From Lachnospiraceae bacterium (lineage in GTDB: Bacteria > Bacillota > Clostridia > Lachnospirales > Lachnospiraceae), in contig JAILEM010000213.1 of assembly GCA_024687745.1 (NCBI GenBank), positions 1-49,526 of the forward strand: a DNA stretch of 49,526 nucleotides. The letters are read 5' to 3'. A program made the position numbers and the translations under genes. Under the pieces are notes generated by a model, which made no database searches, was not told where the DNA came from, and saw only the letters and a program-made list of their open reading frames with translations. Below, piece after piece: positions 80 through 5,641 of this stretch. Numbering within the stretch: the first letter of the stretch is position 1; every line of letters begins with the position of its first letter.

Positions 80-2425
80 GTGGGTGTTATGGGAAATTTA
101 AATGAATTAAGCGGTGTTGAAAAAGAAGAAAAGAGAACTGTGATCAAAAAAAATTATTTTTTCGGACACAGGAGAAAGACAGATGATTTCGAAGATGAAA
201 AGAAGGAGGAATCCTTAAAGAAGGAGGAATCCCTGAAAGAGGAGGAATCCCTGAAAGAGGAAGAACCCCTGAAAGGGGAGGAATCCCTGAAAGAGGAAGA
301 AACCCTTAAAGAGGAGGGATCCCTGAAGGAGGAAGAATCCGTAAAGAAGAAGAACTCCCCGGTATGGGAAGAGTCTGCTGAGAAGGAAGAAGATAAGGAA
401 GACAAAGAAGGTAAAGCAGATAAGGAAGATAAAGCAGATAAGGAAGATAAAACAGATAAGGAAGATAAAGAAGACAAAGAAGGTAAAGCAGATAAAAAAG
501 ACAAACAGTTAAAAAAAGAGAGAAAAAAGAAGGCAGGAGAAGAAAAAAAGGAGAAGAAGGATAAAAAGAAAAATAAAAAAAATAAAGACGATGATATGGG
601 GGAAGAAAGTAATGAGGAGTCTGTAAGAAGCATACTTGAGGATAAGAAAAAGCCATCAAGAAACAAGCTTATGGATAAGATACCTCTCTGGGCTCAGCTT
701 ACCTTTTTCATTGCGGGACTTTTTGTTTTTACTATCATAGTCCTGTCAGTGTCGTATTTTATGAGAAGCAGCAGGCTTGTCACCGATAATAAGGAACAGG
801 CGGCAGAAAGGATACTTGCGTCCAAGATGTCCAACCTGAATATGTATTTAAAGGAGCTTGGATCCTTCAGTATATCTCCGATCTACAGTACGAGTGATTA
901 TTCAAAGCTTCAGTCGGAGAGAGAATTGGGGACACAGACTCTGAACGAACTAAAGGATAATCTGAGGACGATCTATTTCACCAGAAATGACCTGTTATCC
1001 TATCATTTGTTTCTTTTGAACCAGAGAAAGGCGATCGGACGGTCTGAGGATCAGGAGATCTTCTCGGTATATGATACAAAAAATATTGCGGATACCGAGA
1101 TATACAGGGAATGTATCTTAAGCGAAAGCTATTCTGCGGTATTTCCCGCAGATACAAAGAATGCAGCCTTCAAATACGGTCATGTACTTATAAGGGTTTT
1201 TGACAGGAAGATAATTGCCCTTGTTGAGTTTGATGTAAAGAAGGACAAGGTTGATTTCCTGACATCTGACCTTAATGATGACGGAGAGAAGATAGTACTT
1301 TTTGATGATAAGGGAAGGGTGATATTTTCGGGAGACGATAGTGATGAGCCCGACAGCTTTAACACGGTCTTTCAAAGCCTGAAAAGAGGAGATAAATATG
1401 TGAATTATAATGGAGAAGATTTTCTTACCGTTGTAAATAAGGACAGATCCGGGCTTATGCTTGTCTCAATGATACCTCTCAGCGGGATAACAGAGAGCAT
1501 CATGGAGACTCAGATGATCATTTTAATGACAGCGGGTATTATTCTTATACTTGCCCTGATCTTTGCCTATGCCCTGATCCGTCATCTTTCCAAGCCCTTA
1601 AGAACGATATCTGCGATGCACAGTCGTATAGGAGAGGGAGAATTTGAAAGGGTCGATATAGGCGGCTGCAGGGAGACGAGAAAACTCAGTGATTCATATA
1701 ATCTTATGACTGACAGGATACAGGAACTCATAGAGAAGAATTATGTTGCAAGACTCAGTGAGGAGACTGCGAAGCTCGTGGCTCTTGAAGCCCAGGTAAA
1801 CCCGCATTTTCTTTATAATACCCTTCAGGCCATCGGATCAAAGGCTTTACTCAATGATGACAATGAGGTATATACAATGCTTGTATCGCTTGCATCCAAT
1901 ATACGCTATTCGCTTAAGGCACCCGGCTCGATAGAACTTGAAGAGGAAATAAAGTATACGGATAATTATATAATGCTCCAGCAGCTGAGGATGGGTGATA
2001 AGCTTACTGTTACAAGGAAGATAGAGGATGAGATCCCGGATATCCATGTGCCCAAAATGTGTATGCAGCTTCTTGTGGAGAATTCCATAATACACGGTAT
2101 AAGCGGTGATAAGTCAAAGATCTCTCTGGTCGTTGAGGTTAAATGTGAGGATGAAATGCTCCTCATCAAGGTCAGGGATGACGGTGTCGGGATTGAAGCA
2201 AATGAGCTTAAGAGGATCAGGGAAAGCTTTGAGGGTAATTTTGCTGAGGAATTCAGGGATGGAGAAAAGGTTAAGCTTGGACTTAAGAATCTCGCAACCC
2301 GTATAAGGATCATGTATAAGGGAAGGGCAGGGATAGAAGTGGACAGCAATACGGACAGCCCCTCATTTACAGAGGTTATACTTAAACTGCCCGCAGACAG
2401 GGAGGCGTTAAAAAATGATGTATAA
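80..2425 (+). CDS. YesM-type sensor histidine kinase with long Lys/Glu-rich N-terminal tail
   Basis: Membrane sensor kinase, expected to phosphorylate the response regulator encoded next. Start is GTG at 80, 6 bp after AGGAG (69-73); ATG at 89 is the alternative. Residues 1 to about 195 are a very charged cytoplasmic tail containing two sets of 18-bp tandem repeats. Membrane segments lie at about 206-228 and 479-503, enclosing an extracytoplasmic sensor region of about 250 residues, followed by HAMP. The His_kinase motif NPHFLYN places the phospho-acceptor at His576. The ATPase domain shows the N box (QLLVENSIIHG), a DDGVGI G1 motif and a GLKNLATR G2 motif. This is the YesM/LytS-like class. 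Typical YesM kinases are about 580-600 residues, so the excess length is the repeat tail. The final 11 bp overlap the next gene. The ligand cannot be told from sequence. Confidence 0.93.
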   Translation: MGVMGNLNELSGVEKEEKRTVIKKNYFFGHRRKTDDFEDEKKEESLKKEESLKEEESLKEEEPLKGEESLKEEETLKEEGSLKEEESVKKKNSPVWEESAEKEEDKEDKEGKADKEDKADKEDKTDKEDKEDKEGKADKKDKQLKKERKKKAGEEKKEKKDKKKNKKNKDDDMGEESNEESVRSILEDKKKPSRNKLMDKIPLWAQLTFFIAGLFVFTIIVLSVSYFMRSSRLVTDNKEQAAERILASKMSNLNMYLKELGSFSISPIYSTSDYSKLQSERELGTQTLNELKDNLRTIYFTRNDLLSYHLFLLNQRKAIGRSEDQEIFSVYDTKNIADTEIYRECILSESYSAVFPADTKNAAFKYGHVLIRVFDRKIIALVEFDVKKDKVDFLTSDLNDDGEKIVLFDDKGRVIFSGDDSDEPDSFNTVFQSLKRGDKYVNYNGEDFLTVVNKDRSGLMLVSMIPLSGITESIMETQMIILMTAGIILILALIFAYALIRHLSKPLRTISAMHSRIGEGEFERVDIGGCRETRKLSDSYNLMTDRIQELIEKNYVARLSEETAKLVALEAQVNPHFLYNTLQAIGSKALLNDDNEVYTMLVSLASNIRYSLKAPGSIELEEEIKYTDNYIMLQQLRMGDKLTVTRKIEDEIPDIHVPKMCMQLLVENSIIHGISGDKSKISLVVEVKCEDEMLLIKVRDDGVGIEANELKRIRESFEGNFAEEFRDGEKVKLGLKNLATRIRIMYKGRAGIEVDSNTDSPSFTEVILKLPADREALKNDV
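200..343 (+). repeat. Eight tandem 18-bp coding repeats (KEEESL unit)
   Basis: Eight consecutive 18-bp units encode residues 41-88 of the kinase. The six-residue pattern is Lys-(Glu/Lys/Gly)-Glu-(Glu/Gly)-(Ser/Pro/Thr)-(Leu/Val). Units begin at 200, 218, 236, 254, 272, 290, 308 and 326. They differ mostly at third positions, so they are diverged rather than freshly copied. Several units contain AGGAGG-like strings resembling ribosome binding sites. Confidence 0.9.
395..502 (+). repeat. Six tandem 18-bp coding repeats (KADKED unit)
   Basis: A second 18-bp repeat set in the same reading frame. Units beginning at 395, 413, 431, 449, 467 and 485 encode KEDKEG, KADKED, KADKED, KTDKED, KEDKEG and KADKKD. 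Period and phase match the array at 200-343, but the unit sequence differs. Confidence 0.88.
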
Positions 2426-3161
2426 GGCGATGATCATCGATGATGAAGAGCCTGTCAGGATAGCTGTAAACAAGCTCGCCGACTGGAAAAAGTATAATGT
2501 AGATGAGATATATCAGGCAGAGAACGGGATGGAGGCCTTAAAGTCCATGAGAGAGCTAAGGCCGGATATAATATTTGTAGATATGAACATGCCGGTGCTT
2601 GACGGGGTGAGATTTCTGGAAAAGGCATCAAAAGAATTTCCGGATGCAAGATTTATAGTAATAAGCGGTTACGATGATTTTTCATATGCGCAAAGTGCAA
2701 TAAGATACGGGGCGGTAGAGTATCTTTTAAAACCGATAGATGCGTCTGAACTCAACAGGTCCATAGAGAGAGCCATTTTATCGATAAATCCTGAGGAAAC
2801 CTTTGAAGAGAAGGAGGAAAACTATACAACCGCCGAAGATGTTATCCTTCTCATCCACAGGACCATAGAAGAAAGATACAGCGAAAACATAAAAATAAGT
2901 GATTTTTCCGACAGATATTTTTTCTCAAGGGAGTATATATCAAAGCTTTATAAAGTAAAATACGGTATCGGTATATATGAAGATCTTTCCCGTATAAGGA
3001 TGGAGAGAGCCTGCGATCTTTTAAAGGATCAGGAGAACCAGGTAAGGGATATAGCCTTAAGAGTCGGCTTTTCCGATACAAATTATTTCTCCAGGGCGTT
3101 CAGGAAATATACAGGAATTACTCCCACGGAATACAGGAGGTCAGTGACCGGTGGAGAGTAA
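2415..3161 (+). CDS. YesN-type response regulator with AraC DNA-binding domain
   Basis: DNA-binding response regulator, the likely partner of the kinase encoded just upstream. The receiver domain (about 4-122) has the acidic pair D9-D10, the phospho-acceptor D56 in FVDMNMP, and the switch lysine in LLKPID. A linker leads to a C-terminal AraC/XylS double helix-turn-helix (about 145-245) with the family signature around GFSDTNYFSRAFRKYTG. The ATG at 2415 is 9 bp after GGAGG (2401-2405); the adjacent ATG at 2418 is equally readable. It overlaps the kinase gene by 11 bp and the next gene by 11 bp, which suggests translational coupling. Its target promoters are unknown; control of its own operon is an inference. 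Confidence 0.93.
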   Translation: MMYKAMIIDDEEPVRIAVNKLADWKKYNVDEIYQAENGMEALKSMRELRPDIIFVDMNMPVLDGVRFLEKASKEFPDARFIVISGYDDFSYAQSAIRYGAVEYLLKPIDASELNRSIERAILSINPEETFEEKEENYTTAEDVILLIHRTIEERYSENIKISDFSDRYFFSREYISKLYKVKYGIGIYEDLSRIRMERACDLLKDQENQVRDIALRVGFSDTNYFSRAFRKYTGITPTEYRRSVTGGE

Positions 3162-4146
3162 AGAAAAGAATGACAGACATATAAGGATGTCTGAACGTGA
3201 TGAGAGGATCAGAAGGTATCACGAAGAAAGAGAGATAATAAAGAGAAACCGTCAAAAGAAGCTTGAGGGAAACGAACGGGGAAAATATATAAGAAAAAGG
3301 ATCAGTGTCGTTGTCATAAGTATTCTTTCAATACTTATCCCCACTCTGATCCTTCAGTTTGTTATCCCGGGTTCTTTACTTAAAAGGAAGGAAGCTGATG
3401 CCATATCGGATCCCGTGATCACGCCGACTGTTGTAAGCTTAGAGGTTATTGCCATACCTCAGAAGGAGTATGCCGGTTATTCGGGGATATCCGAGGAGCA
3501 GAGGATATGGGATGTTCTTATGGAACATTTTGAGGGGAACAAAACTGCAGTTTTGGGAGTAATGTGTAATCTTAAAAGTGAATCCGGATTTGAGGCCAAA
3601 AATCTCGAGGATTATAATAATCGTTTCTGGAATATAGAGGATGATATTTATACCGAGAAGGTAAACACGAGATTGGTCAGCATGAAGGATTTCATTGAGT
3701 CAAGGCATATGGATTCCACGAACGGATATTATAATAAATATGATGAATGGGTCAACAGGGACGGAGGCTACGGATATGCCCAGTACACCGCTTATGACAG
3801 GAAAGAGGATCTTTATCTTTATGCGGAGCAGTGGTTTGGTCCGGGAGGCCCCGGTGAGGAATACAGGTTTGATATCGGAGATCCAAATATGCAGGCACAT
3901 TATATAGTAAACCTACTCAGGTCCGAAGAGTTCAGCAGCCTTAATAAAAGACTGATGAGTGCATCAAGTGTTGTCGATGCCTGTTATCTGTGGTTAAAGA
4001 AATATGAAATACCATATGATCCGTACAATGATGATTATTATACGCTTGCTTTTGAGAGAGCAGCCTGTGCCGATAAGATAAGAGAAGCCTGTGACAAAGT
4101 AAGTATTGATATACAGGCTGATAACGGAGAGAGAGATGTACCCTGA
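3151..4146 (+). CDS. Membrane-anchored phage-tail-lysozyme-like protein
   Basis: A 331-residue protein, probably a cell-surface murein hydrolase or wall-binding sensor partner. GTG at 3151 follows AGGAGG (3135-3140) by 10 bp. A basic cytoplasmic stretch (1-50) is followed by one membrane segment (about 51-73), a short linker and an exported domain. The exported domain resembles the phage tail-tip lysozyme family (Phage_lysozyme2): it has the pattern in which a helix precedes GVMCNLKSESGF, with Glu144 in the position of the catalytic acid, and a later GGYGYAQYT segment. The gene lies between the response regulator and the binding-lipoprotein gene, overlapping both by 11 bp, so it is probably made with them. 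Family assignment comes from motif memory, not from a search. Confidence 0.75.
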   Translation: MESKEKNDRHIRMSERDERIRRYHEEREIIKRNRQKKLEGNERGKYIRKRISVVVISILSILIPTLILQFVIPGSLLKRKEADAISDPVITPTVVSLEVIAIPQKEYAGYSGISEEQRIWDVLMEHFEGNKTAVLGVMCNLKSESGFEAKNLEDYNNRFWNIEDDIYTEKVNTRLVSMKDFIESRHMDSTNGYYNKYDEWVNRDGGYGYAQYTAYDRKEDLYLYAEQWFGPGGPGEEYRFDIGDPNMQAHYIVNLLRSEEFSSLNKRLMSASSVVDACYLWLKKYEIPYDPYNDDYYTLAFERAACADKIREACDKVSIDIQADNGERDVP

Positions 4147-5641
4147 CAAGATAAAAAATATATATAAAAGCATTATACTGCTGTTAACTGTATTTTTTTC
4201 ATCCCTGATACTGATTTCCTGTAAGGATAAAGCTGTTAAGGATGAGCTTCCCGATAAAGCAAAGGAGTATGATTCTGAGGAATATATAATAGGTGTTGCC
4301 GAGGGATATATATTTGAGGATGCAGTGAGAAGGAATCTCCCGGATGCTTACGTTAAGAGTTATGAGTCGAGGGAGGATCTTTACAGGTCTTTAACAGTCG
4401 GGGAGATAGATGCAGCTGCAGATGATGAACCGATAATCCGGACGATAATGCGGTCAGAAAGCAGTATCGAGCTTATAGACGATTATATCGAGTCCTCGGA
4501 ATATGCATTTGTTTTCACTAAAAATGAAAAGGGAGAGAGACTCTGCAGGGAGTTTGGAGAATATGTCTCAGGACTTAAGGATAATGGAGAGCTGAATAAG
4601 CTTGATGAAAAATGGTTTGGAAATGCTACAGATAATAAGCAGAGTGAGAGTATCGATGTTCTTCCAAAGGATGGTGAAAAGATAAGACTTTCCTTTGATC
4701 CGAGTAATATCCCCTTTGCCTATATGTCGGCAGGAAATCCGGTCGGGTACGATATAGATCTCGCGATCGGTTTCTGTAAGGAAATGGGATATTCACTTGA
4801 GATAAACAGAACCTTCTTTCCTCAGATGCTTGATATGGTAGCGACCGGAGACTGCAGTATGGGGTGCGGGGCAATAACTGTCACAGAGGAAAGAAAGAAA
4901 AGACTTAATTTCAGTACAGCCACTTATCATGGCGGTATATCCTTATGTAAGGCTGCAGATTCTCCTGATTTTGGGGATGAGGGAGAGAGCAAAGGGGGTA
5001 AAAATGCTTTCATAAAAACCTTCATTGAGGGAGAAAGATACAGACTTTTTTTAAAGGGTATCCTTCTTACCCTGCTTATAACCCTCCCTGCTGCCATACT
5101 CGGAACCCCTTTTGGAACCATATTGTATGTTTTCTCAAGAAGGGGGATCCTTCCCGTAAGAGCATTGATGAAGGCACTTGCCTGGCTGTGTTATGTTTCG
5201 CCACCGGTCATGATGATAATGTATGCGTATTATACATATTATAAGGATCTTTATCATGGCGGCCTGATCGCTTCAGTTATCGGCTTTATGTTCTTCTTTG
5301 CGTCAGAAATCTTTAAGCTTATAGTAAGATACGCAGAAAAATGCGAGGATGGTAAGCTTGAATACGAGTACAGGCTTGAATATATAGACGCAGATGAGTT
5401 TTTTAAAAGACTTTTGTCAAAATACGGGAATGAGATACGGGAAGAATACGGGGAAAAAATGGTTATGATGATAAAGCTTACCTCTGTGGTTTCCTTTGTT
5501 TCCGTTACCGATATAACAGGGGTTTTTGATATGATAAGGATGGAAAGCCATGAAGTCATGCTTCCGCTTTTTGCGTCGCTGACGGCATATATACTTATTA
5601 TAGTGTTGATCAGTCGTTTGTTTAAAGGCAGAAGGAGATAG
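4136..5641 (+). CDS. Lipoprotein with permuted amino-acid-binding fold fused to an ABC permease-like domain
   Basis: Start is ATG at 4136 after CGGAGAG; an upstream in-frame ATG at 4106 has no comparable site. The result is 501 residues, and the gene overlaps the previous one by 11 bp. A signal peptide ends in the lipobox LISC (Cys29). Residues about 45-162 match the second half of the SBP_bac_3 family, with GEIDAAADDEP-like and LNKLDEKWFG elements. Residues about 180-271 match the first half, with DPSNIPFAY, VGYDIDLA and GAITVTEERKK. The binding-fold halves therefore occur in swapped order. Residues about 300-501 resemble the membrane domain of polar amino acid permeases, ending with a VSFVSVTDITGVF element. 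The cytoplasmic loop that normally carries the EAA motif for ATPase docking is unrecognisable. No polar amino acid ATPase gene is adjacent, so a sensory role is as plausible as transport. Confidence 0.75.
   Translation: MYPDKIKNIYKSIILLLTVFFSSLILISCKDKAVKDELPDKAKEYDSEEYIIGVAEGYIFEDAVRRNLPDAYVKSYESREDLYRSLTVGEIDAAADDEPIIRTIMRSESSIELIDDYIESSEYAFVFTKNEKGERLCREFGEYVSGLKDNGELNKLDEKWFGNATDNKQSESIDVLPKDGEKIRLSFDPSNIPFAYMSAGNPVGYDIDLAIGFCKEMGYSLEINRTFFPQMLDMVATGDCSMGCGAITVTEERKKRLNFSTATYHGGISLCKAADSPDFGDEGESKGGKNAFIKTFIEGERYRLFLKGILLTLLITLPAAILGTPFGTILYVFSRRGILPVRALMKALAWLCYVSPPVMMIMYAYYTYYKDLYHGGLIASVIGFMFFFASEIFKLIVRYAEKCEDGKLEYEYRLEYIDADEFFKRLLSKYGNEIREEYGEKMVMMIKLTSVVSFVSVTDITGVFDMIRMESHEVMLPLFASLTAYILIIVLISRLFKGRRR

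Follow-up and report, generated by a model that had tools for sequence, protein, structure and literature searches.

What does a protein do that joins the binding domain and the membrane domain of an amino-acid importer, with the halves of the former in swapped order and the ATPase-docking loop of the latter no longer recognisable? The question is raised by a gene at positions 4136-5641 (forward strand) of contig JAILEM010000213.1, assembly GCA_024687745.1. Positions 1 to 49,526 of the contig, hereafter the window, were analysed; the DNA comes from a member of the Lachnospiraceae, a gut- and rumen-dwelling family. The product is a permuted SBP-permease-like lipoprotein of 501 amino acids (aa), hereafter the 501-aa protein; it belongs to a lysozyme-linked family and has no PAAT-type (polar amino acid transport) ATPase nearby. 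We found that the binding halves are swapped, the ligand residues kept and the EAA signature lost, that no PAAT ATPase gene lies nearby, that a lysozyme gene is an almost constant neighbour, and that selection is purifying. We favour, at about an even chance of being right, the reading that 4136-5641 encodes a retired amino-acid importer turned into a ligand-responsive, non-transporting regulator of the adjacent lysozyme.

The open reading frame (ORF) is intact over its 501 residues and begins with a signal peptide (4136-4222) whose lipobox, LISC, ends at Cys29. The original prediction had placed two swapped halves of the SBP_bac_3 fold after this lipobox, followed by a permease-like domain, and this layout was borne out by Pfam and by separate profiles of the halves. 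The second half comes first (residues 44-168, positions 4265-4639, with the invariant Asp97 and the closing KWFG), and the first half follows (residues 176-275, positions 4661-4960, with the invariant Thr248 and Arg253 and the motif PFxYxS). Pfam SBP_bac_3 aligned residues 183-296 to its positions 1-98 (E 1.7e-22 for the whole protein, 1.3e-18 for this piece searched alone); the N-terminal piece alone matched positions 49-131 weakly (E 0.0026, 18 bits, Pfam cut-off 26.4). We also searched solved sequences with a profile of each half, built from 16 aligned relatives. The profile of residues 44-168 matched 53 solved sequences at E <= 0.01 (best 3.9e-16) and fell on the C-terminal part of single-domain binding proteins (121-224 of the 226 residues of GlnH, 1ggg), whereas that of residues 176-275 matched 35 at E <= 1e-10 (best 1.4e-26) and fell on the N-terminal part (1ggg, 3-95). 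The swapped order is clear because these profiles match the C-terminal and then the N-terminal half of GlnH. The protein contains a single binding unit, i.e., one second half and one first half, and not two complete tandem domains.

The full-length alignment of the lysozyme-linked family (A3) holds 29 rows: the window protein and proteins from 28 of the 35 loci in which such a partner lies next to the lysozyme. Near-copies (L072, L075, L103), contig-cut proteins (L079, L089) and proteins consisting of the membrane domain only (L095, L106) were left out; alignments A5 and A7 are the first 16 rows of A3, and A6 is the first 20. SBP_bac_3 was recognised by Pfam in all 29 members. The membrane domain (residues 290-498, positions 5003-5629) resembles PAAT/type-I permeases by the structural model, by profile, and by TIGR01726, which scored 26.8 bits (E 5.7e-6), below its cut-off of 42.2. 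Pfam BPD_transp_1 was not found in the 501-aa protein and was found in just five of the 29 members. A profile of the family aligned with the solved permease 4yms_D along its length (E 1.2e-15), and these comparisons indicate that the permease-like domain is real yet divergent.

An AlphaFold2 model of the 501-aa protein from 29 sequences had a predicted local distance difference test score (pLDDT) of 80.9 and a predicted template modelling score (pTM) of 0.49, with a mean pLDDT of ~90 over the binding region, residues 41-270. The top solved Foldseek matches of the model were OpuAC structures (2b4m, 2b4l) at E ~1e-6, but the template modelling (TM) score was ~0.47 and the root-mean-square deviation ~9 Å; for the permease-like domain, the target-normalised TM score (TMt) was 0.68. 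The model agrees with a permuted, bilobed binding domain, short of proof, the fold match being moderate. All 29 aligned full-length members have Asp97, Thr248 and Arg253. We take their positions to be those that bind the amino and carboxylate groups of the amino acid in SBP_bac_3 domains, and their alignment to GlnPQ is in line with this role.

The 28 aligned relatives have intact ORFs at 38-46% identity to the 501-aa protein. The ratio of nonsynonymous to synonymous substitution rates (dN/dS) was calculated from close pairs of relatives; none of these pairs includes the window gene, for lack of a close relative. For the membrane domain, dN/dS was 0.05-0.17 in eight of eight pairs (which partly overlap); for the binding part, it was 0.08-0.15 in six of seven pairs and 0.69 in the remaining one, L102/L103, which has few changes. 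Such values are indicative of a family under purifying selection and still in use.

Is the swap a product of decay in this gene? Profiles of both halves and of the permease were scanned over 59 fetched, partly overlapping loci picked by similarity to the 501-aa protein. The order (half2-half1)n followed by the permease was found with n = 1, 2 (L006, L008, L010-L015, L017/L028, L038, L041, L050) or 3 (L021). Some proteins are all-in-one, with the ATPase fused (L016, L019, L028, L032, L033, L049), and stand-alone permuted binding proteins lie beside a separate permease in L023, L025 and L026. Normal half order was seen in L003 only, a separate binding-protein gene of the window's own genome; among the fused relatives in these similarity-chosen loci, no complete binding domain in normal order was found. 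Elsewhere in the phylum, ordinary normal-order binding proteins appear as split hits, and G940, from another family of the same phylum, has a 272-aa stand-alone match that covers the two halves, again the second ahead of the first.

Outside the lysozyme-linked family, the closest homologues are permuted importers (30-34% identity for L006-L011). A paralogue in the window's own genome, L002, has the swapped order, keeps its EAA loop intact and lies next to a GlnQ-like ATPase; its N-terminal half was missed by the half2 profile, and NCBIfam ArtJ aligned its residues 63-126 to model positions 117-179, ahead of a first half at ~200. For comparison we used 42 permeases that matched the 501-aa protein, duplicate loci removed; this set is not random and includes stand-alone permeases. 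An ATPase match lies within the fetched stretch in 38 of the 42 loci, the other four being L010, L017, L018 and L030, and the full protein of L017 (L028) has its ATPase fused. Because related Lachnospiraceae proteins show the same half order, the swap is, by this comparison, not a decay of the 4136-5641 gene; it is common to ATPase-linked importers and stand-alone binding proteins. Thus, the proposal of a natural circular permutation with its ligand residues kept holds up, but its supposed origin by loss within this gene does not. An origin of the permuted order from a GlnP-like tandem is plausible. The GlnPQ tandem 6h30 aligns with the family across its tandem junction (69-277 to 135-336), which says little on ancestry because any tandem would align so, and 5gzs, a tandem in a GGDEF protein, does.

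Three side observations concern the permuted importers and the window's own genome. The repeated permuted units (L012, L006, L021 and others), two or three before the permease, start with half2 and end with half1. The GlnQ-like ATPases of these importers carry a conserved C-terminal extension of ~110 aa (L002:2966-3322 and 23 tails like it) that on visual inspection looks like an RsbW/GHKL domain; the L002 tail gave no such Pfam match at E 1, and an alignment of 15 tails gave no hit in the Protein Data Bank (PDB) at E 1. L005:247-2022, in the window's own genome, encodes 591 aa with an SBP_bac_3 first half (and by eye a binding-protein-like C-terminal region) and adjoins a cysteine-synthase-like gene.

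The feature that sets the lysozyme-linked proteins apart is the coupling loop (residues 406-434, positions 5351-5437). The original prediction had described the EAA docking loop as not recognisable, and loop alignment confirmed that its signature (EAA, G and PQA) is absent from the 501-aa protein. We counted loop residues in 34 lysozyme-linked proteins, i.e., those of the 35 partner loci and the window minus L079 and L089. The glycine of EAAxxxG is present in one of the 34 and the loop proline in none, whereas the 42 comparison permeases all keep the glycine and PQ. In its place the lysozyme-linked proteins have a new YR[LV] (Y in 31/34, R in 30/34). In a tree built without the loop columns (midpoint root), lysozyme-linked and comparison proteins are split by one branch with an SH-aLRT (Shimodaira-Hasegawa-like approximate likelihood ratio test) support of 100. 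By these alignments, loss of the EAA signature is a trait of the whole conserved family.

Neighbouring ATPase genes tell a similar story. An ATP-binding cassette (ABC) ATPase lies within 2.5 kb at four of 36 loci (L071, L085, L098 and the window); the best NCBIfam models for the four were drrA, LolD, PhnT2/PotA and an ABCG-type model, all below cut-off. A PAAT model was the best match for none of them (28 of the 35 partner loci span 2.5 kb on both sides). The ATPase nearest to the window gene, ~115 bases downstream, is ABCG-like; it was considered as the engine of the 501-aa protein and rejected, as it belongs to another family and is followed by its own membrane gene. The claim that no matching ATPase gene is adjacent is thus upheld. 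At L085 (genome G271), the LolD-like ATPase is likewise followed by a 797-aa membrane protein, by eye its own partner. Because the EAA signature is lost across a conserved family and no PAAT ATPase lies nearby, the comparison supports the earlier suggestion that the product may sense an amino acid rather than move it.

These results bear directly on an alternative that we consider unlikely, namely that the 501-aa protein is still an importer served by an ATPase encoded elsewhere, the lysozyme merely supplying or exposing a wall-derived substrate. Its own genome does have GlnQ-like ATPases, one beside L002 and another beside the permease L004, and the fold aligns to 4yms_D with the loop ungapped. 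Against this stand the near-absence of the glycine and the absence of the proline that every comparison permease retains, and the scarcity of nearby ABC ATPases, none best matched by a PAAT model.

The most constant neighbour is a lysozyme, which the original account of the gene's neighbours, correct as to the missing ATPase, had overlooked. The gene (3151-4146, forward strand) overlaps the start of 4136-5641 by 11 bases and encodes a membrane-anchored Phage_lysozyme2 (PF18013) protein of 331 aa (Pfam E 4.3e-14), with the lysozyme domain at residues 116-292 (3496-4026). Glu144 is invariant in the 34 rows of the lysozyme alignment (A4; L072, L075, L089, L093, L103, L107, L108 and L109 left out) and is probably the catalytic residue. 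The best fold matches were to phi29 gp13 (3csq/3csr; probability 0.98-0.85 but E 0.04-0.18), and a profile search of the PDB with four lysozymes gave no hit at E 1. By a hydropathy scan, all 42 copies have a single membrane helix except L103, which has two; the N-terminal part before the helix is basic in most copies, not in L092 and L098.

The linkage was seen at several scales. The three closest relatives of the 501-aa protein (G420, G271 and G397; 39-42% identity) all follow a Phage_lysozyme2 gene. Among 397 genomes of the family, the window-type protein (at least 400 bits, the three best candidates per genome being scored) occurs in four and the lysozyme in five, with all four shared; the chance of such co-occurrence is ~5e-9, relatedness ignored. 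The next best protein match, at 253 bits, is ATPase-linked, and some relative of the 501-aa protein occurs in 58 of the 397 genomes, while the lysozyme occurs in just five. Class-wide, the lysozyme was found at E 1e-20 in two of 391 genomes, both Lachnospiraceae. A scan of named genomes gave 41 lysozyme loci from records labelled Lachnospiraceae, Clostridia, Clostridiales or Eubacterium, of which many are from ruminants to judge by their titles. The partner lies directly downstream on the same strand in 35 of the 41 (in L079 and L089 the contig ends inside the partner gene). Its start, as placed, is at most 60 bases from the lysozyme end in 31 of the 35; in L095 and L096 the larger distance comes from the choice of start, and in L078 and L108 the two genes are not close. 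The six loci without a partner comprise L109, cut by a contig end, and L093, L104, L105, L107 and L110, which have other genes there. In an unrooted lysozyme tree of 40 rows (L103, L108 and L109 left out), partner status changes twice. Pro231 of the lysozyme, one of four positions passing a post hoc filter, is present in 34 of 34 partnered and one of six unpartnered copies. That one is L107, a partnerless copy that is nested among partnered lysozymes and ends early.

Some individual loci are also worth describing. By eye, the genes downstream in L107 (7536-8672) resemble regulators of the anti-sigma, antagonist and PP2C types. In the partnerless L104 (5584-7530) and L105 (5674-7656), the lysozyme overlaps by one base the preceding membrane protein, by eye a PP2C-type phosphatase. 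In L108 (7632-9010), the lysozyme gene is split over two frames and the partner is intact.

Under the reading that we favour, the lipid-anchored, circularly permuted SBP_bac_3 domain would lie outside the membrane and close on an amino acid or a ligand resembling a peptidoglycan stem peptide. Because the EAA coupling signature is lost and no dedicated ATPase lies nearby, ligand binding would probably not drive transport. The former permease domain may instead relay or gate the state of its upstream neighbour, the membrane-anchored lysozyme, which would be switched or restrained by the ligand-dependent state, working by analogy like MltF and FtsEX without ATP. That a ligand is bound, that the two proteins touch and that the lysozyme is either activated or restrained are thus predictions. 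A more specific version, which we put forward tentatively and regard as rather unlikely in its details, is that these are ATP-free, ligand-gated wall-enzyme controllers in which the former ATPase dock (now YR[LV]) binds the basic N-terminal cytoplasmic part of the lysozyme, and an extracellular amino acid or muropeptide sets its activity.

Several observations weigh against the favoured reading. The adjacency of the two genes may reflect shared expression only, contact and control being predicted from anatomy and linkage. The window copy is itself divergent, with Ser where 32 of 34 have Gly. The 501-aa protein has a hydrophobic segment at residues 9-27 and is among 24 of 32 lysozyme-linked proteins with a lipobox-like Cys, but eight of the 32 have no lipobox-like Cys by the pattern used. 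The lysozymes of L093, L104, L105, L107 and L110 are unpartnered next door, and genome G211 has a lysozyme and no partner match in the genome at E 1e-30. The sensor domain is missing in L095 and L106; therefore, some lineages can do without ligand sensing. Distances in the lysozyme and membrane-domain trees correlate modestly (r 0.61, no species control). Finally, the linkage counts overstate independence, because several loci are near-copies or come from the same genomes as G271, G397 and G420.

The window offers a second signalling context, upstream of the lysozyme gene. A histidine kinase (80-2425, forward strand; PF06580 His_kinase, its dCache and HAMP matches being below threshold) and a response regulator with AraC-type output (2415-3161, forward strand) are possible members of the same operon. 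The kinase, regulator, lysozyme and permuted-protein genes all overlap. The kinase has low-complexity, Lys/Glu/Asp-rich N-terminal repeats (KEESLKEEE..., DKEDKEDK...; window 154-666). It is improbable, in our estimate, that the 501-aa protein is an accessory sensor of this two-component system, with the lysozyme as a regulated output gene of the operon. The four overlapping genes fit this idea, as do L102/L103, with a similar kinase and regulator directly downstream, and L100, with an AraC-type regulator there; the overlap and the L102/L103 arrangement suggest a signalling context. A kinase or regulator of the window's types was sought near the module in 42 tabulated loci, some too short to show neighbours, and was found in only four (the window, L100, L102 and L103, two of them near-copies). 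A conserved link is therefore rejected as sporadic, and the lysozyme is the only constant partner.

L095 and L106 bear on a further alternative. Here, the membrane domain persists alone beside the lysozyme, the binding domain being gone. In L106, its gene begins 2 bases past the lysozyme stop, after a ribD gene; in L095, it is flanked by ribD- and ribE-like genes (both by eye). Such loci would fit a passive channel or facilitator, or an inhibitor or immunity-like membrane partner of the lysozyme for which the binding domain serves as a lid. We think this unlikely, as the binding domain with its invariant ligand residues is retained in the 29 aligned full-length members. That the gene is a decayed pseudogene on its way out, as its long branches and the failure of the Pfam permease model might hint, is very improbable given the 28 intact relatives and dN/dS well below 1 in close pairs for both domains, the L102/L103 binding part excepted, and we rejected it. 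A phage or defence origin was also rejected, with no close relative in viral contigs and no PADLOC match at E 0.01.

How does the system compare with known ones? GlnPQ-type PAAT importers (two SBP_bac_3 domains, a permease and GlnQ) are homologous in binding halves and permease fold (6h30, 4yms_D) and likewise fused in one polypeptide; unlike them, the 501-aa protein has swapped halves, one binding unit, no EAA signature, no nearby PAAT ATPase and a lysozyme partner. The permuted Lachnospiraceae importers, such as L002, share the swapped order and the fusion but keep the EAA loop and the ATPase. Natural permutation itself has precedents: OpuAC (2b4l) comes from a family of documented circular permutants (PMC2395249), and Treponema MglB-2 is a circularly permuted binding protein (PMC4990184). 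OpuAC/ProX and MglB-2 are thus alike in the natural permutation of a bilobed fold and differ in their ligand families and in being transporter binding proteins.

The closest functional parallels are with regulators of wall enzymes. MltF is a single polypeptide, not known to carry a permease domain, whose regulatory domain is SBP_bac_3-like with normal half order, and the NCBIfam MltF model cross-matches the binding domain of the 501-aa protein at 3.1e-10, far below cut-off. Muropeptides bind the N-terminal domain of MltF, and the domain so bound opens the catalytic one (PMC10746161); a wall enzyme is thus under the control of a regulatory domain that binds a ligand. In the window, the lysozyme has a gene of its own, which overlaps that of the 501-aa protein. 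FtsX is a member of the ABC3 superfamily that acts together with the FtsE ATPase and is not known to contain an SBP_bac_3 domain. It relays signals to hydrolases (PMC6355983); in FtsEX-PcsB/CwlO/RipC, a membrane protein resembling an ABC transporter controls a hydrolase of the wall and does not transport. The 501-aa protein differs in having no FtsE-type ATPase partner, the window's ATPase being ABCG-like. The lysozyme shares its domain with phi29 gp13/PF18013 and differs in being chromosomal, in its one membrane helix and mostly basic N-terminal part, and in its permuted partner.

Permuted binding proteins, transport-free control of hydrolases by ABC-like proteins, and ligand-regulated wall enzymes are thus each already known separately. 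In full-text literature, among the matches listed, with few subscription journals covered and with searches only partly aimed at these points, we found no account of the ATPase-free combination or of a permuted SBP_bac_3 repeat family, and no paper on the EAA motif together with a hydrolase, on domain dislocation in OpuAC or on SBP_bac_3 in Lachnospiraceae. The circularly permuted SBP_bac_3 family, including its (half2-half1)n forms, illustrates that importers can still work with a domain order displaced by half a domain. If the favoured reading is true, an ABC-importer fold has come to serve signalling with no ATPase, and bacteria have one more way, in addition to FtsEX and MltF, of coupling a signal from outside to the cutting of their wall.

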